Part shown: in pieces, positions 4,500 to 54,371 of the stretch
How the letters are laid out: each line of letters starts with the position of its first letter
Position numbering within the stretch: the stretch's first letter is position 1
Assembly (NCBI GenBank): GCA_016935665.1
Contig: JAFGQN010000109.1
Location: 1 to 54,886 of the forward strand
From: Deltaproteobacteria bacterium
GTDB lineage: Bacteria; Myxococcota_A; Polyangia; JAAYKL01
Length of the DNA: 54,886 nt
Direction: 5' to 3'
Made by a program: the position numbers and the translations under genes
Notes under the pieces: model-generated
The model's input: the letters and a program-made list of their open reading frames with translations, nothing else
Told to the model about the DNA's origin: nothing
Databases searched by the model: none

Positions 4500-7400
4500 T
4501 TATTGTGGCGCCGCTTCAATCCCGGCGATGGAGGTGGTGATGAGGAAGTTGGAGTGGGTGATATTGCGTTCCGCGCCGAAGATATCCATGCGGTAGCTTT
4601 GGTCTTCCACCAGTCCCCAGTACTCAGTATAGTTGGGGTCTGTATCTGCGTCGTTGCCATCCCGAGCGGCAATCATTCCAGCACCGGTACCCGTCATTGT
4701 AACACTGGCGTTCTGTGCCCCGTGAATACCACCCAAATCAATGGCCAGGTTGCCGTCGATGAAGACCCACAAGTCATCGTCTCCGGAAAATTCAAACTTT
4801 TGTCCAGACTCATAACGGAACATAAAGTGCATTTCCGTTGTGAAATAGTAGTTTGACGAGTATGTGGTACCGCAGGGGTTGGTGGTTTGCAGATCATTAA
4901 ATAGTTCACCAGGACGGATGGGGTAATATTGCAGCTGGGTACAACCGGTACCGTAATTGAAGAACATTTCACCATCCTCTACTGCGCCTGCCTGATAATT
5001 GCCATCTAAATCCGGCCCAGTCAGTGGCATACAGATCTGCTTCTCCAGATTCACAGGACTCGTGGTATCTGTATCTGTGTTATACCATTGGGAAAAAGTA
5101 GTCCCATTTTTACTCATGGCTGTACAGGTTGTGGCACCGGTATTCACTTGAGGCTTTCTATCTGTACTCAGCGTGTCCAGAATCAGTCCTTCGCAGCTCG
5201 TAATTGTAGAATACGGGAAATCCACATGTGTTCCCCTCTCAATATCTCGAATTGTCGCTGTCAATTCCACCTCATCCACTTCGCTATCGCAATCGTTATC
5301 TCTACCGTCCTCGCTGTATATCTCGCACTGTCCCGGGTGACTGGTGGGGTCCAGGTCGTTGCAGTCGCCGGTATCCAGTTCCGCAGGGAGGGACCCTTCA
5401 AAACCAATGGCCACGTAGCCGTCGCCGTCCTGGTCCACACAACCCGCCAGTCCCAGGCCCCGCGCAGATGTGTCGCAGCCATTGACGCAGAACACCTCGT
5501 TATACGAATGCAGACAGGTACCCGCATAACAGGTCGCCTTACCGTCAAACTTCAACAGCACATCCATGTCCGCCGTATCGCATTCCCAATTCGTATCACC
5601 GATGCAGTCCACTGTGTCGCATGCGTCATTGGGATCGGCCCCGCGGCAGCATCTGAATCCGAGATTGTCCATTTTGAACGTGGCGCCATTGGCGGCCCAC
5701 AAATCAAAGTTGCATTTCATGCTGCCCGCCTGATCATTCCACGAGCCGCCGCGAATCTGGTAGGTGCCACTGCCGAGGGTTGTCTCAGTAGATGTCCATT
5801 CTTCCACGTTGCCGGACATATCGTACAGGTCAGTTGTGCCCCATTCCGCGATGCAATTCGGCATATCGCCCACCGGCATCATTCCATCGATTGTGGTGTA
5901 TTCCACCCCATTGCATGTGTTGGGATCATACGTGTCACCATACGGATAATCCGTTTGCGCAATGCCGCCCATCTCACAGGCAAACTGCCACTGACTGGCG
6001 GAACACAAATGCCACTGATCACTGGCAGAATCGGTATCGGCATAAGCCAATTGCTGACAGGCCGTTTCAGCGTCCGCCCGAGTAATGCCGGTCCAGGGCA
6101 ACACACCGTCTTTGGCGCAGGCCACCCCATTACTGCCGCTGCCCGCGCTCCCTGAACTGGCCCCCTGACGGCTGGCTTCAAATGCAAATATGTCGTAGTC
6201 ATCGGTGCCATTGCTGTCGTAATCAATGGACACATACGCGTCGGAATCCACGCAGTTGGTGTTTTCATCCACCAGTCCATCGCAATCGTCATCCAGACCA
6301 TTTGGCGTTTCAATTTTGCCCTGGGCCACCTCTGACGGCGTCAACACCACATTGGCGCACACAGCATCCGAATCGGTATCCTGGCAGCACACCGCCACTG
6401 CGGCGGCGTCCGTATCGCATCGCCAGATGCCTGTGAGAATACACGCCCCCTGTGAATTCGTATCGGAATCATCGGAGTTGTCACAGGCCGCCCCCAGATA
6501 GGGCGCAGTGGCCAGTGATTCGTCAATAAAGCCATCGCAATCGTTATCCAGCCCGTCGCATAGCGTCTCGTTGACCACCGGTACACCATTGATGTCCAGC
6601 TCCACATTGGCATCGTACACACACGCCCAGTCTTCTTCTGTATCGGACGTATCGCCAACACAGGTCACCGTGGCCTGTCCAACCGCCACACATTTGGCCG
6701 CGCATACGCCCGGCGCATCGTTGGCGTTCAAATCCGCATCATCCAAATCCCAGTCGCTGTCACAGTCATTGTCAATGCCATCACACTGCCGCTCAACCGT
6801 TTCTGCGGCATCGTTGGCCACGTTGTCGCAATTGTCGTCACCGTACCCGGCATCCCCCCAGCATACATCGCAATCGGCCATGGGATTGTCCGGATCGGTG
6901 CCACATGCCGCAACGTTGTACTCACATTCACACCCATCGGTCGGCGATAGCGTTAAATTGGCGTCGCGATAATTACCTTTACAGGTGGCGATTTCACATA
7001 CGCCGCCGCTGCACCGATAGCTGTTCACATTGGGCGCGCCAATCGTCGTGCAGTCCGTATTGCAATCACCGCAATGGGTCACATCATTTGAGAAGTTGAA
7101 GGCATCGTCCACCACACCGTCACAGTCATTGTCTTCGCTATCGCAACGGGTTTCCTGTATCACCAGCGCAAAACAGGGATCCGAATCGTTTGCCCGATCA
7201 CATTCCACAATCCCCGTGTTCGTTACGTCGTACTCACACCGCCACCCGCTGGTGCCATCACAGACCACCTGGGTCACTGTCGCTGCCGGACACTCGTAAC
7301 AACCGAACGCCCCTATATCCGGCACTGTCAAATCAGATAACTCATCGGTATCTCCGTCGCAATCGTTGTCATCCCCATCACACACCTCCACCCGATTAAG

Positions 7401-10400
7401 CGCCGGGTTCTCATCGCAATACATGTGAGTACCATCGCAGCGCATCACCCCCAATTCGCATTTGTCGGCATCATCGGTGCCATCACAGGCGATTTCGTAA
7501 GACGTGTCTCCCGCGCCGTCCGGGGTAGACGCATCGCAGTCATTGTCAATACCATCGCACACATCCGGACCATAGTTCAGGTTGGCGTCCACACAGGTCA
7601 TCGCGCCGCCAATACACTCCAAATGACCATCATTACAGGGAGAGCCGCAAACAGTGTCGGAATCCACAAACCCATGGAATGCGTCCTCATCCACCAGGCC
7701 ATCGCAATCGTTGTCCTCCCCGTCACACACATCACAATGGTCCGTATCGCCACAACTCGGTCCCACATCGCCCACACACCCATCCGAATCCGCGCATGAA
7801 TAGGTGCCCACCTGGCAAATGCCTTCATTGTAGGGATCGCAATCATTGGCGGGACGGTTGCAGGGCACCGTGCTGGAACCGCCACACTGATACGTCTCCA
7901 CTTCGTCCACAGCGCCGTCACAATCATTATCGGCGCTGTCACAGGCAATTTCCACATGGGTATCTGTATCGTCCAGACACGTAATCGTTCCGTCGATACA
8001 TTGGGTTACGTTGGCGGCACAGATGCCCAAACCGCAGGCAACTCCCAGACGCACACCGTCATGAATTTCAATGTTATTGGCATTGGAATCAGCTGCACTC
8101 AATTCATCGGTCAGGCCATCGCAATCGTTGTCGAGGCCATCACAAAGTTCCATCGCCGGTCCCACCGCTCCCACACAACCATCGTCTGTATCGTACTCCT
8201 CCGGCCCCGCCACACCGGAAGCAAGCGCCTGTGCAACGCATGATGCCAGCCCCGTCTGACAAATGCCCTCGTTGGGATTGGCGCCGGGGGCGCCGCCACA
8301 CGGAATGCGCAACGCTTCATCAGGCACACCGTTGCAGTTGTTGTCCAGTCCATCGCATACTTCGGTTTGAGGCAACTGATACCCCGAGCACTCCAGATTT
8401 CCCGATACACAACTTATGATTCCCGCCTGACAGATACCCTGACAACTGTATGTTCCGTCCGTATTCTCGATGCACCCGGTTGACCCGATGGGATAACACG
8501 GTGCACCACCTTCGGGATTGCCTTCATCTTTTTGCCCATTGCAGTTGTTGTCCAAATTGTCGCAAGTCTCAATAGCGGCGGTGTCGCCATCGCAGTAATA
8601 TTCACAGCCGTCCGTATCCACATCGTTCAAATTCCACCAGCGGGAATCGCATCCGGAAAGGGTGCATTGACCGTTCACGCAATCAGGCGAACCGTGATTA
8701 AACAGACAGAGATGACCACAGTACCCGCAGTTCTTGTCGTCATTTTGAAAATCAACGTCTTCATCAAATGAAAAGTCGCAGTCGTTATCCACAGGCACAT
8801 AACTGTCATTGTCGGGATCTGCGGACGTGGCAAATCCATCACAGCGGTCGGCGTTGTCATCCGGGTCCACCGTAGGCTGGCAAAAGTGTTCGCAGCCATC
8901 GGCGATGTTGCCATTCTGATCGTACCAATATATGTCGCAGGCCGCCACGGCGCATTGTCCCTGAACACACCCCGCCGACGCATGGGCCACCGTACACCCC
9001 ATACCGCAGGTCCCGCAGTTGGAGGGGCTGGTCAACAGATTCACACAGTACTGCGCACCGTTTTCCCGGCTGCAGCATGTTTCACCAACCGCACAGGTAC
9101 TGCAATCCACACCGGTATCATTCGAACTGTCAAAATCCGTACTGTCCGTCCCGCCATCCGTTGAGTCCGTCCCGCCCCCATCCGTTCCATAACTGGATGT
9201 ATCATCACTGTCACTGCCACCGCCATCGGTGGGGTTGATGCCGGAACTGTCGGTTCCCCCTGCACTGTCTGACGACGTGGTCCCGCCACCTGTGCCGCTG
9301 CCACTGCCGGTATCCTCCTCCCCCAGATGAAACGGTTCCACCTGACAGCCCAGCGCCAGCACAACCAAACCCAGCAATATGATGCGGGTGAGCCACAACC
9401 GATATACCTCTGCGCGTCGTCGCCGCGCCAAACGCAGCAGTGCCAGCATTGCGCCAAACACAATCACCATCCAGGGCAGGCTGTTTTCAGACGACGCTCC
9501 GGGCGCCGCACTGCACAGACATCCCCCCATTCCCGTTGCCAGCACGTCGGTCAATCCCTCGTAAGTGAGCGGTTCTTCACTATCCGAGGCGCTGTCGGTT
9601 GCACTATCACCACCCATACCCGACGTATCCGCGCTATCGGTCCCGCCCGCCGTATCCCCGCCAGTCGTATCCGTATCTGTCCCGGACGATGTTTGCCCCT
9701 CCGGCAGGTAACATGATCCTTCGAAACACACAGTCCCGTTTGGGCACTCGATATTCACGCATTCATCCGGCACGCAATTACCCTCTTCGCAGCGTTCATA
9801 GAAGTCGCAGGAAATCCCCGCACACGGATTGGTCAACGTGACGTCGCACAGTCCTGTTTGCGGATTGCACACCACTCCCGTTTTGCACATGACACCGGCA
9901 CATGAGTCTGCCACACATACGCCTTCTACACATCCCTGCAGCGCTGGACACGTCACATCCACACAGGTGCCCACACATTGCCCGTCACTGTTGCAATACT
10001 GATTTTCAGCGCAGGTCACGCCGGCACAGGGATCGACAACACATTCCGCACATATTCCGTCGGTGCACAATGCGATGGGAACGCATTTGTAACCGGATTC
10101 GCAGCCAGTCACCATACACCCCTCCGCAATGTCATGACATCGGCCATTATCGGCCACCACGCACACTCGGTCTTTGCCGCAATCCTTGTTGTAACAGACA
10201 TCCACACATTTTTGTGCAAGGGGATCGCACGCGCAGGGAGGCTCAAAGCCCTCACCCGGTGTACAATAGTATTCATTGAACACGCAGGGCAATGCCAGGT
10301 CGTTGCCGGCGTCGCAGACTGTCGCCATGCAAATCCGGACACCCGCTTCGTAAGTGATACAGGATTTGCCCACAGGACAAACAAACTCTCCTTCGTTGCA

Positions 10401-13400
10401 AGGCTCCGCACATTCGCCCTCCAGGCAGATAGCGCCCGCCAGAGGACACTCCACCTCATCATCTTCGTCTACCAACCCATCGCAATCGTTGTCGAGACCA
10501 TCGCACACCTCATCGGTCGGTCCAGGCGCACTGCACTCCCAGCCACAATCCTTACATTCAAACTGGCCCACCGTACATTCGCCAATGCCTTCGGGATTCG
10601 CTGCCTTAACAGCTTCATCGCTCATCCAGTTGGGCGCCTTGCTGCATTGTCCGTATGGCAACACGTCTTCATCCACCTGTCCGTCACAGTCGTCATCCAG
10701 ACAGTTGCACTCTTCGGAGGTGCCCCCGCTGCCACCCACGCATACCATGGCATAGTCCTTCGTCACGGGATCCTGTACACACTGCATCAACCCAGGTTCA
10801 CAAATGCCCAGTGACTGCCCGCATGCTTCACCCGAGCCCGCAATATCCTCATCCACGCTGTCATCGCAGTCGTTGTCGCGACCGTCGCACACTTCCATCT
10901 GGGCCACCACGGGAGACGTGCATTCGCTGTCGCTGTCCCACACCTCCGCATCACAACAATGCAAACTGGTTTCCACAATTTCGCCATCCACCACACTGAC
11001 ACACTGTTGAATGCCCTGTGGACACTCACCCACCGCCACCTGACACACCACATCCTCCATGTTATCGAAATCCTCATCCGACTGACCGTCGCAGTCGTTG
11101 TCCCGGCCGTCGCAGACTTCGGCCACCGGCCCCACCGAACCGAAACATGCCGTGGTCATGGCCCCGTCGAAACAGATGTTTAGACCTTCCACACATTCGC
11201 CGGCCGACGGATTTCCCGGAACGCAGGGAGAATCCGTATCCAATCCTGTAACACATCCACCACACGGTACCGGATCGATACCGTCGTCGATGACATCATT
11301 GCAGTTATCATCGGCGCCATTGCACACCTCATCTGCCGGCTCGTCTCCCACGCACACCAGCTCATAGGCGCCTATCTGTCCCGGTGTTCTGGCGCTGTTG
11401 GGCAAACACTGATACACGCCGTTGCACGCACCGCACGGCGTTCCCACCAGCGAAACAGCCTGGTTATCCAGCAAATCAACGGATTCCTCGTCTTCGAATT
11501 TTCCATCGCAATCATCATCGAGACCGTTGCACAATTCCTTTTGCGGTCCCTGTGCGCCGCTGCAGGCGCCCCACGTAGCCGGATCTTCGCTTTCGGTATC
11601 CGGGCTGCAATACTGTGTGCCCTTGCGGCAGATACCCACGCCATACGCGGCGTCGGGCCAGCTGTCTGTATCGATGTCATCGCCACAGTCATTGGTGATG
11701 CCTTCGTCCACATCGCCGTTGCAGTTATTGTCCAGATTGTCGCAGGCACTGCCCTCGGATACCGGCTTCACATATCCCGCACATGAAATGGTGCCACTGG
11801 TGCACGTATACGTTCCCTCCTGGCATTCACCTTTACACACGCCACCGACGCATCCAATCAAACCCGCTGGATAACAGGGTCCAAGAGAAATCCCTTCATC
11901 CACAATGCCATCACAGTCATCGTCGAGGTTATTGCACATTTCCGCTGTGGGGCCCACATCCCCCACACAACTGCTCCAATCCGCCACACCGCTGCCCAGC
12001 ACAGCCTGACAGGTTCGTGTTCCCACCGTGCACCGTCCCGCGCCAGGATCGGTACTGATGCAATCGAACTCCGTATCCACTCCAATTTCACACCCTCCGC
12101 ACGATTGCGCCGTTGTCTCATCCACCGTACCCTCACAGTTATTGTCCAGACCGTCGCAAATTTCCGCTCTGGGAGAGACCACATCAGTCCCGTCGTTGCC
12201 CACGCACTGCATTGCAGGAATGCTTGAGTTGCACTGCATGGTGCCCGCGTTGCAAATGGAATAGGGCTCCATCTGGAACGTGGTCCAGGACGCGGCGCCT
12301 GCGGGGCATACCTGTGTTTCCACCACGTCTTCATCCAATAAACCGTCGCAGTCATCATCGAGGCCATTGCAGGTATTATCTTCGCTGCGAGGCGTCACCA
12401 TGCCCACACATACCTCACTGCCGGACAAACAGGTCAACTGTCCTGGCTCACAAATGCCCTTGCAATCATATGTGCCGTCGCTGTTGGTATCCATACACCC
12501 GTTGTCTGCAATCGCGTCGGTATCGCTGTAACAGGCGTTGCCTTTATTGGGGAATGTCTCGTCGGCCTGACCGTCGCAGTCATTGTCGCTTCCGTCACAG
12601 GTTTCGTCGGTGCCCCATACCGCGTTGCATTGCCAGTCACCGTCCACACAAACCAGATGTCCCGCAGAACAGATACCCACATCCTTGCCGCATGTGGCGC
12701 CGGTGTTTTCCAGGGGGTTGCCCGCTGTATCTTCATCGGTGTCCCCATCGCAATCGTTGTCCATACCATCACACGTTTCTTCCGTGGGCCCCACCGCGCC
12801 AATACATGCGAGACCATTACCCGGAATGCACTGCACAAGCCCGCTTTTGCACTGAACACCGGTGGTGTTGTAATTACTCGGAATGGTGGTGGTATATCCA
12901 GCGCCCTGGGACACACACTGTGCGTGCCAATCCGGATTATAGGTGATTGACCAACCATCGATCGGCACTTCGTCCACCTGGCCATTGCAGTTGTCGTCCA
13001 GCCCGTCGCACACCAGTTCCCCCGGATCGTCACACACCGCATTCCAATTGGGGTTACGGTACAATTCACCGTCGGTGTCATACCAATATGGATAGACGGT
13101 GGTATCGGAATCCGAGTCCGAATCCGTATCCCAGAACACGGTCGCCGGCAGACTCAACTTATTGGGGTCGCAATAGTCGCCCGCCACGCCTTCATCCACC
13201 AGACCATCACAGTCGTCATCCAGATAGTTACACTCTTCAATCAAAATTGCCGAAGAAATGATGTTGGCCAAAATCGTGGAAAGGGACTGCTGACTGTTGG
13301 CCAGAAAGGCGTAGCCAATGCTGCCATTACAATTGCTGTCGGGATGCGCTGTCCGCGCTGCCGCGCCACGCGCGGGGTCGTAATGACATCCGCCTACATC

Positions 13401-14411
13401 TGCCATGTAGTCCAGCGTGGTCGACTGCGCCGCCAGACCGATCACCCAGGTTTCCACCTGCAATACGTCGTGCAGCGCATCCACGCCGTACTCGAATTCG
13501 AAACCCGCATTGTCGCCCGTTCCGCCCACCACATCCGCACCGGTAATGGGATCGAGTCGACCATCAAAGTCCCCATCCGCCAGAATGACCAGATAATACG
13601 GCCGGCACTCCGATACCGGGTCTGCCGCCTTGACCTGCGCCAGATACCGATACGCTGCGTGCACCGCTTCGCCCAGGGGCGTTCCGCCATCGCCCCGCAG
13701 CTCCTGCTCGGTCAATTCACTGTACGGACTGGGGTACACCGAGGTCAGAGGCGCCACGAACACGTTGGAATCGATGTCCATCGAAGTATCACTATCGTAC
13801 TCCACGTGGTCAAACCACGCTTTCAGTTCTTCGATTTTTTCGTAGTACAAATCGTCGGCATCGGGAAACTCTTCGCACAAATAGAAGGCCTGGTTGAATG
13901 ACGAATCCGAGTCCGAGATAAAGTAGGGCGCATAATCGTAATACACATCCGTGCCCACAGTGACCTCATCCGTGTCACCGGCACCCAGCCCCTGGTAACG
14001 CAATGAATCGTTGGCGCCCTGCGACTGATTGTTCACATACCACTGCACCTGAAATCCAGGATTGCCATCGGCATCATATGCCTGAGGAAACTTCATGAGT
14101 GCAAACTCAATATCCCCCGTGGAATCGATCATCTGGGTAATTGCATCCTTGGCAATGCGCATCCGGGATTCGCCCAGCCCCGGGCAGCAGTATCTGTCTG
14201 CATAAATGTCTCTGGAACCGTCCCCAAAGGTCGGCGAACCACCAATATCAAACGTCATGCTACCCGATGTATCAAACAGAATCAGAATTCTGGGTTTCAC
14301 GGTGCTTTGACTTCGTGCGGCAAAACTGATTGTCAGTGCCAATGCCATCACTGACCCAAATAAAAACCGGCCCATTTTCCTGTGGTGATTCGCGCTAAAA
14401 AATTCAAACAC
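4500..14411 (-). CDS. Giant two-part surface protein: VWA, MopE repeats, internal MYXO-CTERM-like tag, internal lipobox, FGE fold, fibro-slime domain
   Basis: A 3303-aa exported protein. The GTG start is supported by AAGGAG 10 nt upstream; a signal peptide runs from Met13. Domain order: von Willebrand A domain (about 40-385, MIDAS DTSGS at 47-51); 14 MopE-type repeats (CDGxDNDCDGxxDE) from 393 to about 1340; a Cys-rich EGF-like region to about 1560; Thr/Ser/Asp/Gly linker; GGCLCS (Cys1631) with a membrane span and RRRR; then directly a second membrane span ending in lipobox LALGC (Cys1689); about 13 more MopE repeats; FGE-sulfatase/C-type-lectin-like fold (about 2714-2925: YDMSGNVEEWT, IRGGSW, LGFRCC); and a C-terminal fibro-slime domain (about 3050-3303: SGDDDLWVFIDG, DLGGIH, FGAERN). 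It therefore reads as two complete surface proteins fused in frame. Probably an adhesin or matrix protein; metal binding is known for the family and the ligand is unknown. Its paralogue is at 34870-44679. Confidence 0.92.
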   Translation of the reverse strand: MFEFFSANHHRKMGRFLFGSVMALALTISFAARSQSTVKPRILILFDTSGSMTFDIGGSPTFGDGSRDIYADRYCCPGLGESRMRIAKDAITQMIDSTGDIEFALMKFPQAYDADGNPGFQVQWYVNNQSQGANDSLRYQGLGAGDTDEVTVGTDVYYDYAPYFISDSDSSFNQAFYLCEEFPDADDLYYEKIEELKAWFDHVEYDSDTSMDIDSNVFVAPLTSVYPSPYSELTEQELRGDGGTPLGEAVHAAYRYLAQVKAADPVSECRPYYLVILADGDFDGRLDPITGADVVGGTGDNAGFEFEYGVDALHDVLQVETWVIGLAAQSTTLDYMADVGGCHYDPARGAAARTAHPDSNCNGSIGYAFLANSQQSLSTILANIISSAILIEECNYLDDDCDGLVDEGVAGDYCDPNKLSLPATVFWDTDSDSDSDTTVYPYWYDTDGELYRNPNWNAVCDDPGELVCDGLDDNCNGQVDEVPIDGWSITYNPDWHAQCVSQGAGYTTTIPSNYNTTGVQCKSGLVQCIPGNGLACIGAVGPTEETCDGMDNDCDGDTDEDTAGNPLENTGATCGKDVGICSAGHLVCVDGDWQCNAVWGTDETCDGSDNDCDGQADETFPNKGNACYSDTDAIADNGCMDTNSDGTYDCKGICEPGQLTCLSGSEVCVGMVTPRSEDNTCNGLDDDCDGLLDEDVVETQVCPAGAASWTTFQMEPYSICNAGTMQCNSSIPAMQCVGNDGTDVVSPRAEICDGLDNNCEGTVDETTAQSCGGCEIGVDTEFDCISTDPGAGRCTVGTRTCQAVLGSGVADWSSCVGDVGPTAEMCNNLDDDCDGIVDEGISLGPCYPAGLIGCVGGVCKGECQEGTYTCTSGTISCAGYVKPVSEGSACDNLDNNCNGDVDEGITNDCGDDIDTDSWPDAAYGVGICRKGTQYCSPDTESEDPATWGACSGAQGPQKELCNGLDDDCDGKFEDEESVDLLDNQAVSLVGTPCGACNGVYQCLPNSARTPGQIGAYELVCVGDEPADEVCNGADDNCNDVIDDGIDPVPCGGCVTGLDTDSPCVPGNPSAGECVEGLNICFDGAMTTACFGSVGPVAEVCDGRDNDCDGQSDEDFDNMEDVVCQVAVGECPQGIQQCVSVVDGEIVETSLHCCDAEVWDSDSECTSPVVAQMEVCDGRDNDCDDSVDEDIAGSGEACGQSLGICEPGLMQCVQDPVTKDYAMVCVGGSGGTSEECNCLDDDCDGQVDEDVLPYGQCSKAPNWMSDEAVKAANPEGIGECTVGQFECKDCGWECSAPGPTDEVCDGLDNDCDGLVDEDDEVECPLAGAICLEGECAEPCNEGEFVCPVGKSCITYEAGVRICMATVCDAGNDLALPCVFNEYYCTPGEGFEPPCACDPLAQKCVDVCYNKDCGKDRVCVVADNGRCHDIAEGCMVTGCESGYKCVPIALCTDGICAECVVDPCAGVTCAENQYCNSDGQCVGTCVDVTCPALQGCVEGVCVADSCAGVMCKTGVVCNPQTGLCDVTLTNPCAGISCDFYERCEEGNCVPDECVNIECPNGTVCFEGSCYLPEGQTSSGTDTDTTGGDTAGGTDSADTSGMGGDSATDSASDSEEPLTYEGLTDVLATGMGGCLCSAAPGASSENSLPWMVIVFGAMLALLRLARRRRAEVYRLWLTRIILLGLVVLALGCQVEPFHLGEEDTGSGSGTGGGTTSSDSAGGTDSSGINPTDGGGSDSDDTSSYGTDGGGTDSTDGGTDSTDFDSSNDTGVDCSTCAVGETCCSRENGAQYCVNLLTSPSNCGTCGMGCTVAHASAGCVQGQCAVAACDIYWYDQNGNIADGCEHFCQPTVDPDDNADRCDGFATSADPDNDSYVPVDNDCDFSFDEDVDFQNDDKNCGYCGHLCLFNHGSPDCVNGQCTLSGCDSRWWNLNDVDTDGCEYYCDGDTAAIETCDNLDNNCNGQKDEGNPEGGAPCYPIGSTGCIENTDGTYSCQGICQAGIISCVSGNLECSGYQLPQTEVCDGLDNNCNGVPDEALRIPCGGAPGANPNEGICQTGLASCVAQALASGVAGPEEYDTDDGCVGAVGPAMELCDGLDNDCDGLTDELSAADSNANNIEIHDGVRLGVACGLGICAANVTQCIDGTITCLDDTDTHVEIACDSADNDCDGAVDEVETYQCGGSSTVPCNRPANDCDPYNEGICQVGTYSCADSDGCVGDVGPSCGDTDHCDVCDGEDNDCDGLVDEDAFHGFVDSDTVCGSPCNDGHLECIGGAMTCVDANLNYGPDVCDGIDNDCDASTPDGAGDTSYEIACDGTDDADKCELGVMRCDGTHMYCDENPALNRVEVCDGDDNDCDGDTDELSDLTVPDIGAFGCYECPAATVTQVVCDGTSGWRCEYDVTNTGIVECDRANDSDPCFALVIQETRCDSEDNDCDGVVDDAFNFSNDVTHCGDCNTDCTTIGAPNVNSYRCSGGVCEIATCKGNYRDANLTLSPTDGCECEYNVAACGTDPDNPMADCDVCWGDAGYGDDNCDNVANDAAETVERQCDGIDNDCDSDWDLDDADLNANDAPGVCAAKCVAVGQATVTCVGDTSDTEEDWACVYDANVELDINGVPVVNETLCDGLDNDCDGFIDESLATAPYLGAACDNSDDSDTNSQGACILTGIWRCDTDAAAVAVCCQDTDSDAVCANVVLTPSEVAQGKIETPNGLDDDCDGLVDENTNCVDSDAYVSIDYDSNGTDDYDIFAFEASRQGASSGSAGSGSNGVACAKDGVLPWTGITRADAETACQQLAYADTDSASDQWHLCSASQWQFACEMGGIAQTDYPYGDTYDPNTCNGVEYTTIDGMMPVGDMPNCIAEWGTTDLYDMSGNVEEWTSTETTLGSGTYQIRGGSWNDQAGSMKCNFDLWAANGATFKMDNLGFRCCRGADPNDACDTVDCIGDTNWECDTADMDVLLKFDGKATCYAGTCLHSYNEVFCVNGCDTSARGLGLAGCVDQDGDGYVAIGFEGSLPAELDTGDCNDLDPTSHPGQCEIYSEDGRDNDCDSEVDEVELTATIRDIERGTHVDFPYSTITSCEGLILDTLSTDRKPQVNTGATTCTAMSKNGTTFSQWYNTDTDTTSPVNLEKQICMPLTGPDLDGNYQAGAVEDGEMFFNYGTGCTQLQYYPIRPGELFNDLQTTNPCGTTYSSNYYFTTEMHFMFRYESGQKFEFSGDDDLWVFIDGNLAIDLGGIHGAQNASVTMTGTGAGMIAARDGNDADTDPNYTEYWGLVEDQSYRMDIFGAERNITHSNFLITTSIAGIEAAPQ
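9345..9524 (-). other. Internal junction: MYXO-CTERM-like motif, transmembrane hairpin and lipobox inside the giant ORF
   Basis: Codons 1630-1689 encode GGCLCS, a Ser/Pro-rich spacer, a hydrophobic span, an RRRR cluster, a second hydrophobic span and the lipobox LALGC before QVEPF. The first half of this has the order of a C-terminal sorting tag of the MYXO-CTERM kind (Cys motif, span, basic cluster). The second half has the order of a type II signal peptide. No stop codon lies between them. Predicted topology: both large flanking arms outside the inner membrane, joined by a two-span hairpin. Confidence 0.75.
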
Positions 14412-14703: not shown

Positions 14704-15873
14704 CTACGGCGCCTCACCGCCATCCATAATGAACCAGTTGTATTGTTGCGTCAGTATTTTTCGGGCCTCGTCTGACGCGGATGTGTAGTTGCTTCTCCCG
14801 GCGTTAAAGTAAATGTGAGTAACCACATTCTGACCAGCGAAAGAGATAAGGAGCGCATCGTAATTTTAGGGAGACAGATTTTCAACAAATTCGCGAGGCG
14901 GCGCAAAATCAGCGTCCACCTTATCACCTTCTATGTCTCCACCGCCCGTCATGCCACCGCAAAAGTCGGTTACATTGGCCACGTCCCACGTTGACAAATC
15001 CTGATCGAAGGCACCTGCCATCTCAAACATGGCGAACATCCGTGTTACCTGTGACACTTCTCATGTGGACAAGTCCTGATTGAATACCGAAGCCCCAATG
15101 AACATTTCAGACATCTCGGCAACGCGCGAAACATCCCAGTGCGCGAGAGGCTGATTGAATGCCGCAGCCCCGCGAAACATGCCGAACATACTGGTCACCC
15201 CCGATACATCCCACGAATCAAGGGGCTTATCAAACACGATGGCATTGGCAAACATAAATGACATATCCGATACATGGGACACATCCCAATTCGCCAGCGG
15301 CCGGTTGAACACCCTGGCGCCCTCAATCATTGAGGCCATATTTTCCACATGGGAAACGTCAAAGGCAGACAAATCTGAATTAAACAGCCTGGCGTTGTGA
15401 AACATTCCGCGCATATTCGTCACCGACATCACATTCCAGCCGGAGATATCCCCATTGAATATTGTAGCTCCCTCAAACATACCGTGCATATCGCGCACAC
15501 CGGTAGTCACCCAATCCGTTAAATCCCGATTGAAATTCTCCGCCCAGGCAAACATGTATGCCATGTCTGTTACATTTGATACATCCCATTTCGAAATGTC
15601 GCCGTTAAACATATCTGACGCTTCGAACATGGATTTCATACTGGTAATTGACGACACATCCCAGCCTGCAAGGGCGTCGTCCCGCCACCCTGAACATCCC
15701 GGGCCACACTCTTTGTGAGAGCATTCCGATGGAGAATCGCTGCTGCACGAATCCAGAAAGCAACCTAAAAGAGACGTGGTCTTCGACAAATCCGGAGTAT
15801 CTTTGGCGGTGATTTCCAAATTCAATGTATAGGCAAACTGCGCCAATGTATCGCCAAACGCCATATTCCCCCA

Positions 15874-15955
15874 CTGAGCCACTTTCAGCAGTTTTGGCGC
15901 GTCCCCCGCATTTTCTGAGCCACTTTCAGCAGTTTTGGCGCGTCCCCCGCATTTT
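15874..15955. repeat. Perfect 41-bp tandem duplication within the DUF285 gene
   Basis: Positions 15874-15914 and 15915-15955 are identical 41-bp units starting CTGAGCCACTTTC. Because 41 is not a multiple of three, the second copy shifts the reading frame of the minus-strand lipoprotein gene. Removal of one copy would join the two open frames exactly at KVAQ-WGN. The identity of the copies suggests a recent event, or one that can revert by slippage. Confidence 0.95.
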
Positions 15956-34869: not shown

Positions 34870-37800
34870 CTATTTGGGAATGGCTTCGATACCGGCGATG
34901 GAGGTGGTAATGAGGAAGTTGGAGTGCTGCGTGTGGCGCTCAGCTCCGAAGATATCCATGCGATAACTTTGATTTGGCGTCAGTCTCAGATCATTCAGGT
35001 TTACTGTCGCAGTAGCGGCGCCATGAACACCGCCCAAATCCATCACACGTTGTCCATTGATAAATACCCACAAATCATCGTCTCCGGAAAATGTGAAGGT
35101 CTGGCCTCTTTCATACCGAAACATAAAGTGCATCTCGGTAGTAAAAAAGAAGTTGTGGGGTTGTCTTGCCCCGGTGCAGGTTGGTGGATCACCAGGATTA
35201 TAGCCATCGTAGTTCGGAGTTTTTGAGTCGGCGAATAATTTTCCATCAATGGGGAAATACTGCATTTGGCTACACCCATAATTTTTGAAAATCTGCCCAT
35301 CCGCATATTTACCGGCTGTGTAAATGACGGGATTCGTGTTCGGTTCTTTCACCAGTGGCATACAAATTTGGGTTTCCCGGTTCACCGATGTATCGGTGTT
35401 ATACCATTGGTTGAACTGATACTCACTGGTGAGTACCTGGACGTTTCTATTCAACGCCTGAGACCAGCAATTTCCATAATTAAAATTGGGTTTGTAATCA
35501 TTTGTATCAATATTGCTCTGCACTAACCCTGCACACACTGGATAATCGAAATTCTGCTCAAATCCAATTTCAAAATCGGGATGACTTTCTCTGAAGTCAC
35601 GGATGGTGGCCAGCAGTTCCACTTCGTCAGTGGTACCGTCGCAATCGTTGTCGATGCCGTCCTCGCTGTTGGATTCGCACATAGAGGGAAAAGAATCCGG
35701 GTTCATATCGTCACAGTCCCCTTTTTGCAATCCAGAAGGCATCACTCCCGGGTAATCCCTGTGCACCCATCCATCCCCATCCATATCGATACATCCGGGT
35801 TTGCCAGTGCCCATTGCCACACTGCTGCATCCAATAGCGCAGAAAATCTCCACGTAAGAATCGACACACGTACCATCATAACATTTGGCGCCGCCGTCGT
35901 ATTTGCGCAGAATATGGGTATTTCCGCCGGGATCGCATTGCGAATCCGTGCGACCTGAACATGTCGTGCCAATACAGGCATCATCCGGATCCTCACCACG
36001 GCAGCAGCGGAAGCCAAGATTATCCATTTTAAACTTCGCACCGTTGGCTGCCCAGAGATCGAAATCGCAGGTCAGACTCTCCGGCTGATCATTCCACGAA
36101 CCACCGCGAATCTGGTATACCCCGCTCCCCGGCGACGTTTCGGTGGACGTCCATTCTTCGGCATTACCGGACATATCATACAGGTACGTGGTTTGCCCCC
36201 AATCTGCAATGCAGTACTCATTGGCGCTGTTGGCGCTGCCGCCTGGAATCAAGGCACCCGAATATCTATCTATCCCGTTGCATCGATCCTCGTCGTAAAC
36301 GTTGCCGTAGGGATAGGCATACTTCTTCACACCCTGCGCGCAGGCGAACTGCCATTGGCTGGCAGAGCAAACCGACCAATTCCCATCTTCCAGAGCCTTG
36401 CAGGCCGCTTCTGCCTCCAGTTGAGTAACACCAGTCCACGGAATAGTGTTGCCAACAGAACAGGCCACTCCGGCATTGCCACCACCGGCATTTCCCGCAT
36501 TGGCGTTGAAGCGGCTGGCTTCAAAGGCAAAAATCTCGTAATCGTTGGTGCTATCGTTGTTGTAATCCACCATCACCGTTTCATTGGCACAGCTGGTTCC
36601 TTCGTCAATTAAGCCGTCGCAATCGTCGTCGACACCATTAAGAATCTCGGTTTTGCCTTCCACCTCTTCGGACGGTGTGGGTACTTCGTTGACACACACC
36701 GCATCGCTATCACTGTCGGCACAACACACAACGGGCGCTTTGGGATTCGAGTCGCAACGCCATGTTCCCGTTAATATGCAGGCGCCCTTGGAGAAGGGAT
36801 CATTCACATCGGAATTGTCGCAAACGGTTCCCAGATAGCCGGCGTTGGCCACAGGTAGATTCTCATCCACAAACCCGTCGCAATCATTGTCCAGTCCGTC
36901 GCAAAGTGTTTCGTTGCCCACGGGAATACCACCGGCCAATTCCACACTCGTATCGTAAGTACATTCCCAATCCTCATCAGTGTCAGACGGATCGCCGTTG
37001 CACGACACCTCTGCCACACCGTACTCCACGCACGTTGACGCACACACGTTGGGCGCATCGTTGACGCTCAAATCGTCATCGGCCAAATCGATGGCATTAT
37101 CGCAATCATTATCAATCCCATCGCACCGCTGCTCAACAGCAGGCGCGGCATCATTGGGAACGTTGTCACAGTTGTCATCGCCATAGCCAGCAGCGCCCCA
37201 GCACACATCGCATCCCGCGGTGGGGTTATCAGGATCACTACCGCAGGCCGCCGTGTTGAATAGGCATTCACACCCATCACTTTCGTCGTTATTGGCATCC
37301 CTGTATTTCCCTTCGCACCGTGTGATCTCACAGGTTCCCCCACTGCATTTGAAATCGCCCAGATTGGAGGCAGGAATAATATCCGCGCACGCGTTGCCAC
37401 AGGCGCCGCAGTTGTTTTCGTCCGCACTCAAGTTGAAATCATCATCTGCGATGCCATCACAATCATTGTCTACCTGGTCACATCGGCTCTCCTCTGAATA
37501 CAGTTCAAAACAGGGTTCGCTCGAATTAATGCGATCGCAATCAAGAACTTTGGCAAACTGATTGTTCACATCGTACTGACACCGCCAACCATTTTTGCCA
37601 TCGCACACTACCCGAGTTTCGCCCACTGGGCACGTGGCACAACCAAAGGCTGTGGGACTGGCGGGGGGCGTCAGGCCATCATCCACCACTCCGTTGCAGT
37701 CGTTGTCCACGCCATCACACACCTCCACATGAGATACGGTTTCCTCGCAAACCATAGCTGCACCATCACACCGCATAACCCCGGAGGCGCACTGGTCCGC

Positions 37801-40800
37801 ATCGCCACCATCGCAGGGAGTGTCGAAATTGGCTTCCGCAGACCCATCCGGAGTGGTGGCATCACAATCGTTGTCCTGGCCATCGCACACATCCTGACCA
37901 TAGTTCTGGTTCGCTCCCACACAGGTCATGGCGCCGTTTATACACTCCAGCATTCCGTCATTGCAGGGAGTGCCGCAAATCTTCTGCGTAGCCGTGTAGC
38001 CGTAGAATGCGTCCTCATCCACCAAACCGTCGCAGTCATTGTCTTCTCCATCACACACATCGCAATGGTCTCCATCCGCACACGCAGGCGGCACATCCCC
38101 CACGCACCCATCCGCCTCTGCACAGGAAGAAATACCCACCTGACAAATCCCCTCATTGTACGGATCGCAGCCGTTTACGGTGTCATTGCACGTCACTGCA
38201 CTGGAACCACCGCATTGATAGGTGGTAACTTCATCCACCGCACCATCGCAATCGTCATCAATGTTGTTACAGGCGATTTCCATGTTGGGAACAGTAAAAT
38301 CTTCACACGTGATCACTCCGCCGATGCACTCTGTCACGTGAACCGCGCAGGCGCCGAGGCCACATGCCACGCCGAGGCGTGCCGCGTCATTCACATTGAT
38401 ATTGTTGTTATTGCCATCCACCGTTGCCAATTCGTCCACCAACCCGTCACAATCATTATCGAGGCCGTCACATCTCTCCAAACCAGGCCCCACGGCGCCC
38501 ACACAACTGTGGTCCGTGTCATAAACAGCCGTCCCGGGGACGCCCGGCGCCGGGGATTCCGCCACACACGGTGCCAGTCCCTGTTGACAGATACCTTCAT
38601 TGGGATTGGGACCTGGTGCACCGCCACAGGGAATTCGCAGCGTTTCATCCACCTGACCATTGCAGTTATTATCCAGGCCATCACACACCTCGCTCTTCGC
38701 CAGCACGTAGTTGGCACATTCCAGATTGCCTTCGACACAGCTTATTTGACCGGTGGCACAAACTCCGATACAATTGTAACTGCCATCATCGGTATCGAGA
38801 ATGCACCCAGTGGAACTGTTGGGATAACATACCGCACCGCCACCCGGATTTCCTTCATCCTTTTGTCCGTTACAATTATTATCCACATTGTCGCATACTT
38901 CCAGGGCATCGGTATCGCCATCGCAATAATACTCACAGCCGTCCGCCATGGTGTTGTTCATATTCCACCATTTATCGTCACATCCCGTCAACACACATTC
39001 GCCCAGCGCACAGGTGCCGCTCCCATGGTTGAACATACACAAATGACCGCAATATCCACAGTTTCGGGGATCATTTCGAAAATCCACGTCTTCATCAAAC
39101 TGAAAATCACAATCATTGTCGAGGGGCACGTAGTTATCGCTGTCGGTATCCGCCGAAGTCGCCAGACCATCACATTTATCGCCGTTGTCATCGGGATCCA
39201 CCGTGGGTTGGCAGTGGTACTCGCACCCATCGGCCACATTACCATTGTGATCATGAAAATACGTATTGCATGCAGCCAACACACAGCCGCCGTTCTGGCA
39301 CTGTGCGGTTGCGTTATCATAGACGCATTCCGTACCGCACGCGCCACAGTTGGTTGGACTGTTGAGCAGATTCACGCAATACTGAAAACCACCCTCCGTT
39401 CTGCAACAGGTTTCCCCCGCCAGACATGTGCTGCAATCCACCCCTGTATCGAAATTGCCATCGGAACCTGTCCCATCTGTTCCCAAAGAATCGGTACCGT
39501 CGCTGTCCGAAGACGAAATCGAACTGCTGTCTGTGCTGTTTTTCCCATCTGTGCCGTCGGTTTCCACCTTGAGATTGCTGCTGTCCTGGCCAAGCAATCC
39601 TTCGTTTAAATTGTACGGTTCCACCTGACATCCCATCAGTGCCAGCAACAGCGCCAATCCACCCGCTTTGACCAACCAGATGACCCGCCGCCGCGTCATC
39701 GAACGACGGAACAGACGCATCATCAGCAGCATGAACGCAATCGCCAGGGCCTGCCATCCCAAAGGTTGCGATATGGTTGCGCCCGGTGCAGTACTGCAGA
39801 GGCATCCACCCATCCCCGTCGCCAGCACATTATCAAGGCCCTGGTAATTGTCTGGATTTTCATCCGAATCGTTCGGCGTTCCATTCGAATTGCTGTCACT
39901 GTCAATCACTGTCGATGATGAATCACTGTCAAAGGTGCCACCATCCGAATCCGTTCCAGTCAATGGACGGCTGCCCTCTGGCAGGTAACAGGAACCTTCG
40001 ATACAAATGTTGCCATTGGGACACTCCACATTCCTGCATTCATCTGGCACGCAAAGGCCAATCTCACAGCGTTCATGGAACTGACAACTCACTCCGGCGC
40101 ATGGATTGGTCACACCCGGATCGCATTGACCCGTTTCCGGATTACACAACACTCCGATTTTGCATATCACGCCGGCGCAAACATTAGGACCACACACGCC
40201 TTCTTCGCATCCCTGGCCTGCGGGACAATGGACATCCGCGCACGTTCCAACGCAAACCCCGTTGCCGTTGCAGTACTCATTGTCACCACAGACAACTCCC
40301 GCACAGGGATCCTGTACACATTCCTGACATGGCGCCTGTGTACAGGGTTCAATGTCGACACATTTTTCGCCGGGCTCGCACCCGGTCACCATGCAACCTT
40401 CTTCAATATCGTGACACCGCCCGTTATCTGCGGCGACACACACGCGACCTTCACCACAATCCTTCCCGTAGCAACTATCCACGCACATCTGCGCCACAGG
40501 ATCACACGTACACGGTGGTTCAAAATCGTGTTCAGGAGAACAGTAGAATTCATTAAATACGCAGGGCAGCGCATTTCCACTGGATGGGTCACAGACAGTT
40601 GCCATGCAGACTTTTGTAGTGACATCCAACTCCACACAGCTCTTGCCCACCGGGCAAACAAATTCGCCGTCATTGCACGGCTCGGCACATTCGCCTTCGA
40701 TGCAAATAGCGCCTTCCAAAGGACATTCCACCTCATCATCCTCATCCACCAAACCATCGCAGTCATTGTCAAGGCCATCACAAACTTCCGGCGTTGGGCC

Positions 40801-53729: not shown

Positions 53730-54371
53730 TCATTGCCGTAGCAATCCTCTTTGTCGTAAATACTTCTCAAGATTCAGTTGCAGTTGCTTCTCAAGCGCAC
53801 GTGCCTTCCAACGAGTCATATTCAGTTGTCTGGCGACTTCAAGCAGAGGCAACTCCTCCTTAAAACGAAATGCGATAAATTGTTGATGACGCGCACTCTG
53901 ATTAGAAACAAATTCTTCCGATGCCTCAAGGCAATGTTGAAAGAAAATTCGGTCTTCTTCATCGGGGACAGCTACCTCAGTCCTCTGGATGATATTTTCG
54001 GGCACATGAACTCCATATCCTTCGGAATGATTTTGCCCCGCAGCCACAGGGTCTCTGGCATGCGCACGCCAATAATCTATCAGGCGATTGCGCGCAATGG
54101 TCAGCAGAAAGGCGTGATAGGGACGAATACCATCGTAGGATTCTCTGGCACTTTTCGAAAATGCCCTTAAAAAAACATCCTGAAGAAGGTCCAAACGCTC
54201 ACTGATATTTGCAACGCCCTTGATGAAATTCCCCTTATGCTTATCAGTAAATCCGGTTTGCAGACACCGAAGTACAGCATTTGCATACGTACGATACACT
54301 GTTGTCAGCGCATCGTGTTCGCCCCGTCTGAAGGCATCAAGGAGCTCTCGGTTTTCATTCAGTATGGTCAT
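53730..54371 (-). CDS. ECF-type RNA polymerase sigma factor
   Basis: A 213-aa sigma-70 family protein of ECF type. Region 2 spans about residues 10-110 (ALTTVYRTYANAVLRC, DLLQDVFLRAFSKS, AFLLTIARNRLIDYWRA; the DxxQDVFxRA and NRLIDYWR blocks are diagnostic). Region 4 spans about 145-205 (QQFIAFRFKEELPLLEVARQ, LNMTRWKARALEKQL). The first gene of a three-gene minus-strand operon with a membrane protein and a caspase-like protease. Target promoters are unknown; autoregulation is likely for ECF systems but no consensus could be defined in the upstream 500 bp. Confidence 0.9.
   Translation of the reverse strand: MTILNENRELLDAFRRGEHDALTTVYRTYANAVLRCLQTGFTDKHKGNFIKGVANISERLDLLQDVFLRAFSKSARESYDGIRPYHAFLLTIARNRLIDYWRAHARDPVAAGQNHSEGYGVHVPENIIQRTEVAVPDEEDRIFFQHCLEASEEFVSNQSARHQQFIAFRFKEELPLLEVARQLNMTRWKARALEKQLQLNLEKYLRQRGLLRQ

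Follow-up and report, generated by a model that had tools for sequence, protein, structure and literature searches.

Within the MYXO-CTERM/myxosortase system (TIGR03901, NF040593, NF040914), the MYXO-CTERM signal is cut by a myxosortase in a Cys-dependent manner, also in E. coli (PMC11980579). An internal MYXO-CTERM is already on record for MXAN_5598 of Myxococcus xanthus (Guo et al., 2025; PMC11980579). The authors suggested that two genes may have fused to give this protein, whose N-terminal part would reach the surface through processing in the middle of the chain. An ArtA-processed Tat substrate of Haloferax is also reported to carry an internal tripartite signal and still to be processed (Abdul Halim, 2017, as cited in PMC11980579). 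The genes traA and traB of M. xanthus overlap by four bases, and both proteins belong to one pathway (PMC3325183).

Here, we analyzed a contig of 54,886 nucleotides (JAFGQN010000109.1, assembly GCA_016935665.1, GTDB lineage Bacteria; Myxococcota_A; Polyangia; JAAYKL01), called the window below. On its minus strand it carries two giant paralogous open reading frames, P0001 (positions 4500–14411, 3303 aa) and P0002 (34870–44679, 3269 aa). As in MXAN_5598, an internal MYXO-CTERM lies between two large regions. The second half of MXAN_5598, however, is an outer-membrane beta-barrel with OmpA and is not described as a lipobox lipoprotein, and MXAN_5598 was described as a single atypical protein, whereas the junction reported here forms a class-wide family with split counterparts. 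These split pairs resemble traA/traB in that a MYXO-CTERM gene overlaps the gene of a partner envelope protein by four bases, but TraB is of the OmpA type and no MopE lipoprotein, and the two genes are unfused in M. xanthus. With the MYXO-CTERM/myxosortase system as a whole, the giant ORFs share the tripartite signal and the enzyme family encoded in the genome; they differ in the internal position of the signal and in the Arg tail, which doubles as the n-region of a lipoprotein signal. The Haloferax substrate is similar in having a sorting-type signal away from the C-terminus, but it is archaeal and handled by a different enzyme. An internal MYXO-CTERM as such is known. New are the lipobox partner, the class-wide conservation, the equivalence of split and fused forms, which were switched repeatedly, and the use of the junction in unrelated cargo; none of these was described in the literature examined. 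A literature search on MopE lipoproteins in Myxococcota returned no paper.

Architecture of the Two Giant Open Reading Frames

P0002 was read as an N-terminal signal, a VWA-like DxSGS domain, MopE repeats, the MYXO-CTERM, the lipoprotein signal, further MopE repeats, an FGE-like domain and a fibro-slime/PA14-like C-terminus, and P0001 has the same architecture. Cys/Asp-rich MopE repeats (PF11617) were found on both sides of the junction in both proteins. The VWA-like DxSGS motif at the N-terminus is a reading by eye without database support, and a PDB sequence search with this region gave no match. The C-terminal half of P0002 (residues 1684–3269, positions 34873–39630, minus strand) is homologous to stand-alone lipoprotein genes of split relatives and is predicted from its sequence to be an N-terminally lipidated MopE/FGE-like/fibro-slime lipoprotein. 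The FGE-sulfatase-like domains (PF03781) lie at 5643–6110 in P0001 (E 4e-11; used for the gene tree below) and at 35998–36450 in P0002 (E 2e-8), both on the minus strand. One Cys of the RGG...C region is kept in them; of the two active-site Cys known from formylglycine-generating enzymes, the second seems by eye to be missing, and the domains are therefore probably structural.

Two other minus-strand features of the window were recorded. A 273-aa protein (15061–15882) consists almost entirely of DUF285 repeats (PF03382, 394.7 bits), whose family name derives from Mycoplasma. A caspase-domain protein (PF00656, 51142–52863) is encoded near an ECF-type sigma factor (53730–54371) and a LuxR-type regulator.

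A Predicted Pair of Sorting Signals at the Junction

The initial annotation had pointed out the motif block in both giant ORFs without naming its parts. The block was found in frame in both, in the order GGCLCS, helix, Arg cluster, helix and lipobox Cys. From its sequence features we read it as a MYXO-CTERM sorting signal directly followed by a type-II lipoprotein signal peptide, the Arg cluster being shared between the two. In P0002 (minus strand), the MYXO-CTERM-type signal spans 39706–39810, with GGCLCS starting from 39810, Cys 1626 at 39804–39802 and helix 1 at about residues 1640–1658. It is followed by the basic loop RLFRRSMTRRR (39685–39717), predicted to be cytoplasmic, and by the internal lipoprotein signal (39628–39675) with a hydrophobic stretch and the lipobox Cys 1684 at 39630–39628. 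In P0001 (minus strand), the MYXO-CTERM occupies 9414–9527 (Cys 1631 at 9521–9519) and the lipoprotein signal 9345–9392 (Cys 1689 at 9347–9345). The lipobox LMGC had been assigned to both copies; it was found in P0002, while P0001 has LALGC. The Cys-to-Cys distance is 58 residues in each, just as the annotation gave it.

The assignment as MYXO-CTERM is based on the short GC.C-type motif with its invariant Cys, present as GGCLCS in both copies, and on the transmembrane helix with a subsequent Arg-rich segment. The position deviates from the extreme C-terminal one, with about 1600 residues following the signal. TIGR03901 matched P0001 with 26.6 bits in a six-frame search (cut-off 20) and with 18.1 bits when the whole protein was used; P0002 stayed below the threshold, while its paralogue and its orthologue passed. 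The same profile matched 15 of 22 sampled junctions of the class at E 0.01 and gave no match in 14 control genomes. The lipoprotein signal shows a basic n-region, a hydrophobic h-region and a lipobox Cys; it is internal in the fused form and N-terminal in the at least 12 split homologues. P0001 and P0002 contain a single hydrophobic lipobox each, at residue 1689 and residue 1684, respectively. The lipo-invert C-terminal anchoring domain (NF058595) was considered and rejected: it scored 15–16 bits against a cut-off of 37, a level at which 11 of the 14 unrelated control genomes also gave matches, none of them above the cut-off.

Divergence of the Two Copies

A codon comparison of the two junctions, the check proposed in the initial annotation, yielded a dN of 1.26 and 27% amino acid identity for the helix-to-helix span, compared to a dN of 0.27–0.29 and 63–67% identity in the flanks. 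The residues between the two Cys have indeed diverged, as had been noted from the letters, yet hydrophobicity, basic loop and open frame were retained. The proportion of synonymous differences (pS) was about 0.77 in the N-terminal half, 0.73 between the two Cys and 0.82 in the C-terminal half, and the longest identical run of the two genes (25 nt) lies far from the junction. Since synonymous sites are near saturation gene-wide and long identical runs near the junction are absent, recent gene conversion, which would have made the conservation uninformative, was excluded. When the observed divergence was simulated without constraint, the span remained open in 12% of the runs, and the Cys motifs together with both helices were retained in 0.005%, as estimated with a crude model of a single span without a tree.

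These data also bear on the view that the fused frame stems from faulty sequencing or assembly, or that a stop codon was lost recently and the loss copied between the paralogues by conversion. The fragmentation of the window's assembly into 249 contigs speaks for an error of this kind. Against it stand the near-saturated synonymous sites across the junction and the same in-frame arrangement in at least 68 loci of at least 45 genomes, single-contig and two-contig genomes included. We regard the probability of such an artifact as negligible, in agreement with the initial annotation, which had dismissed chance stop loss and assembly error.

Fused Junctions Within the Class

A third fused copy with a spacing of 59 is encoded elsewhere in the window's genome. 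A protein search of 59 relatives yielded 13 fused junctions within the family, counting the two of the window, plus one from a different family. Orthologues of the same family had Cys spacings of 52–60, and across the 13 junctions L, G, GG, both MYXO Cys, the lipobox Cys and P were invariant, while the helices diverged. In a relative (G006), near-identical sequence starting just after the junction region was observed at the first bases of two contigs (C20 and C161), which suggests that repeats break assemblies there and that this relative also has two copies.

For the class, which we take to be Polyangia (Myxococcota), 317 genomes were searched with a profile and each locus was then read. All resulting counts are lower bounds, drawn from among the matches listed per genome. 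At least 68 fused junctions were found in at least 45 genomes of at least 18 families. Spacing among the 68 listed junctions ranged from 43 to 71 residues (median 56.5) and was exactly 58 in 8 of them. The identical spacing of the two copies, which had been taken as conserved, is not a constraint of the family. The net charge of the loop was +2 to +11 in all 68 listed junctions; a strict PROSITE-like lipobox pattern was matched by 55 and missed by 13. We are aware of the fact that the motif Cys, present in 68 of 68, appear invariant partly by selection of the matches, because the search profile contained both Cys. In a phylum-level sample, judged by score alone, few matches outside the class were obtained at E below 1e-4. 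A first scan of named genomes with the whole protein gave no match; with the junction alignment, 7 loci in named MAGs were found.

The same junction also joins other cargo. In G017 (L146, G017:C398) it connects a subtilase/PKD protein to a lamin-tail-domain lipoprotein; G034 and G050 have homologues of this junction, as do G026 and G042, where the loops are longer. Loop length varies widely among these subtilase/PKD junctions (L146, L214, L215, L216, L217). An FG-GAP/laminin-G protein of G147 carries the junction as well. As these proteins lack kinship with the MopE architecture, the junction is not peculiar to one repeat family. A separate case was observed in G155:C573 (L123, ORF 3342–1414, minus strand), where the frame of a MYXO-CTERM-like segment continues into a signal of the signal-peptidase-I type (SSASA/QV) and a TraB-like OmpA protein. 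The TraB-like half reached 257.7 bits with NF033763, below its cut-off; this TraA-TraB-like fusion resembles MXAN_5598.

Split Forms and Repeated Switching

At no fewer than 12 MopE loci in at least 10 genomes, the MYXO-CTERM ORF stops just past the Arg tail and a lipoprotein gene follows directly. In most of these pairs, stop and start share the four bases ATGA or GTGA; in the others they lie within about 14 nt of each other, and a GGAGG-like site is usually located upstream of the second start. The second genes encode MopE repeats and begin similarly after the lipobox; they are stand-alone homologues of the C-terminal halves, and most split forms also share the FGE-like domain of the fused ones. 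Both states were found together in at least 5 genomes, among them G314 (one contig), G315 (two contigs) and G017, which has the fused subtilase and a split MopE pair.

An unrooted tree of 52 FGE-like domains from fused and split forms requires 6 changes between the two states, at least 5 of them on well-supported branches; being unrooted, it does not give the direction, fusion or fission. P0001 grouped with the copy of a congeneric species and not with P0002 (support 93/77, below the level starred in the tree), so the duplication probably predates the species split. The interchange of split and fused forms is our main argument for two separate proteins as the functional product.

The initial annotation had proposed selection for the fused form or for the hairpin. 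Selection on both signals is borne out. Selection on the fusion as such found no support: overlapping gene pairs carry these two signals in homologues, and repeated switches are required by the gene tree. On these sequence comparisons, what is selected is the pair of signals at the boundary, which can be produced interchangeably by a fused gene or by two genes.

The split genes are relevant to a further explanation, in which translation of the second half begins at an in-frame start upstream of the lipoprotein signal, with read-through as a by-product. Split relatives do start there with a Shine-Dalgarno-like site, and the loop of P0002 contains an ATG (MTRRRV). But no Shine-Dalgarno-like motif is visible before this ATG, the loop of P0001 offers only a TTG, and the full-length chain is made anyway, as no stop codon is present. 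An ATG occurs in the loop of 10 of the 68 listed fused junctions, and 29 have no ATG, GTG or TTG at all. On these counts, internal initiation was rejected as a general mechanism, and we consider it very improbable for the two giant ORFs.

Processing Enzymes and Proposed Precursor Mechanism

The window's genome encodes a CPBP protease which scored 127.8 bits with NF040914, the myxosortase core family (curated cut-off 100), and carries the motifs EExxxR, H and HxxxN. This myxosortase-family protein stays under the thresholds set for the named subtypes MrtX, MrtC and MrtP. MrtX-like proteins were detected in 58 of 59 relatives, all under the MrtX cut-off. Two LspA, three Lgt and a full GspD are also encoded. 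The two LspA genes are in tandem (G000:C82:106270-107525), and the Lgt genes are located on C95, C66 and C65. To our knowledge, no MYXO-CTERM acyltransferase has been assigned in the literature; an extra Lgt is a candidate for this function.

We think it likely that each giant ORF encodes a precursor which is cut twice, by myxosortase and by LspA, to give two lipid-anchored MopE-repeat surface proteins in a 1:1 ratio. Sec would export the N-terminal half by means of its own signal peptide, and transfer would stop at helix 1, which belongs to the MYXO-CTERM. With the Arg loop left in the cytoplasm, helix 2 would restart export as an ordinary lipoprotein signal, leaving both halves outside the inner membrane, linked by a helical hairpin. 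The MYXO-CTERM Cys would then be lipidated and the N-terminal half freed by the myxosortase-family protease, while lipidation of the lipobox Cys and cleavage in front of it, by Lgt and LspA, would free the C-terminal half. The hairpin of about 55 residues would be discarded. Both proteins would arrive in a 1:1 ratio, the outer surface being their probable destination, and may act together there. For the enzyme steps this proposal draws on published MYXO-CTERM work (PMC11980579) and on general lipoprotein biology.

A hairpin that is left uncut, or cut on one side only, would look similar in sequence. It would serve as a permanent two-helix inner-membrane anchor for two periplasmic domains, the signal-like motifs being relics of a gene fusion, and hydrophobic helices around a basic loop are what such an anchor needs. 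Relic motifs would decay, yet the Cys stay while the span turns over at a dN of about 1.3. Moreover, unrelated cargo has acquired the same junction, these signals recur in split relatives on two separately made proteins, and a myxosortase-family protease is present in the genome. We therefore judge the permanent anchor unlikely and favor the precursor that is cut twice.

Implications

If this reading is correct, myxosortase can work on a site that is followed by a second helix and a 1600-residue domain, LspA acts on an internal signal, and the poorly understood lipidation of MYXO-CTERM proteins meets the standard lipoprotein pathway on one molecule. We know of few cellular polyproteins in bacteria that are cut at an internal hairpin; they appear to be rare. 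With some reservation, we lean toward a polyprotein strategy of the whole class, in which a C-terminal sorting signal and an N-terminal lipoprotein signal are combined in a hairpin excised by two cuts. Two surface proteins of opposite lipid polarity, one anchored at its C-terminus and the other at its N-terminus, would arise in a fixed 1:1 ratio, and lineages would have switched repeatedly between this solution and two overlapping genes. The switches between fused and split forms mark the two halves as likely partners and may thus provide a handle on the role of MopE-repeat surface proteins.
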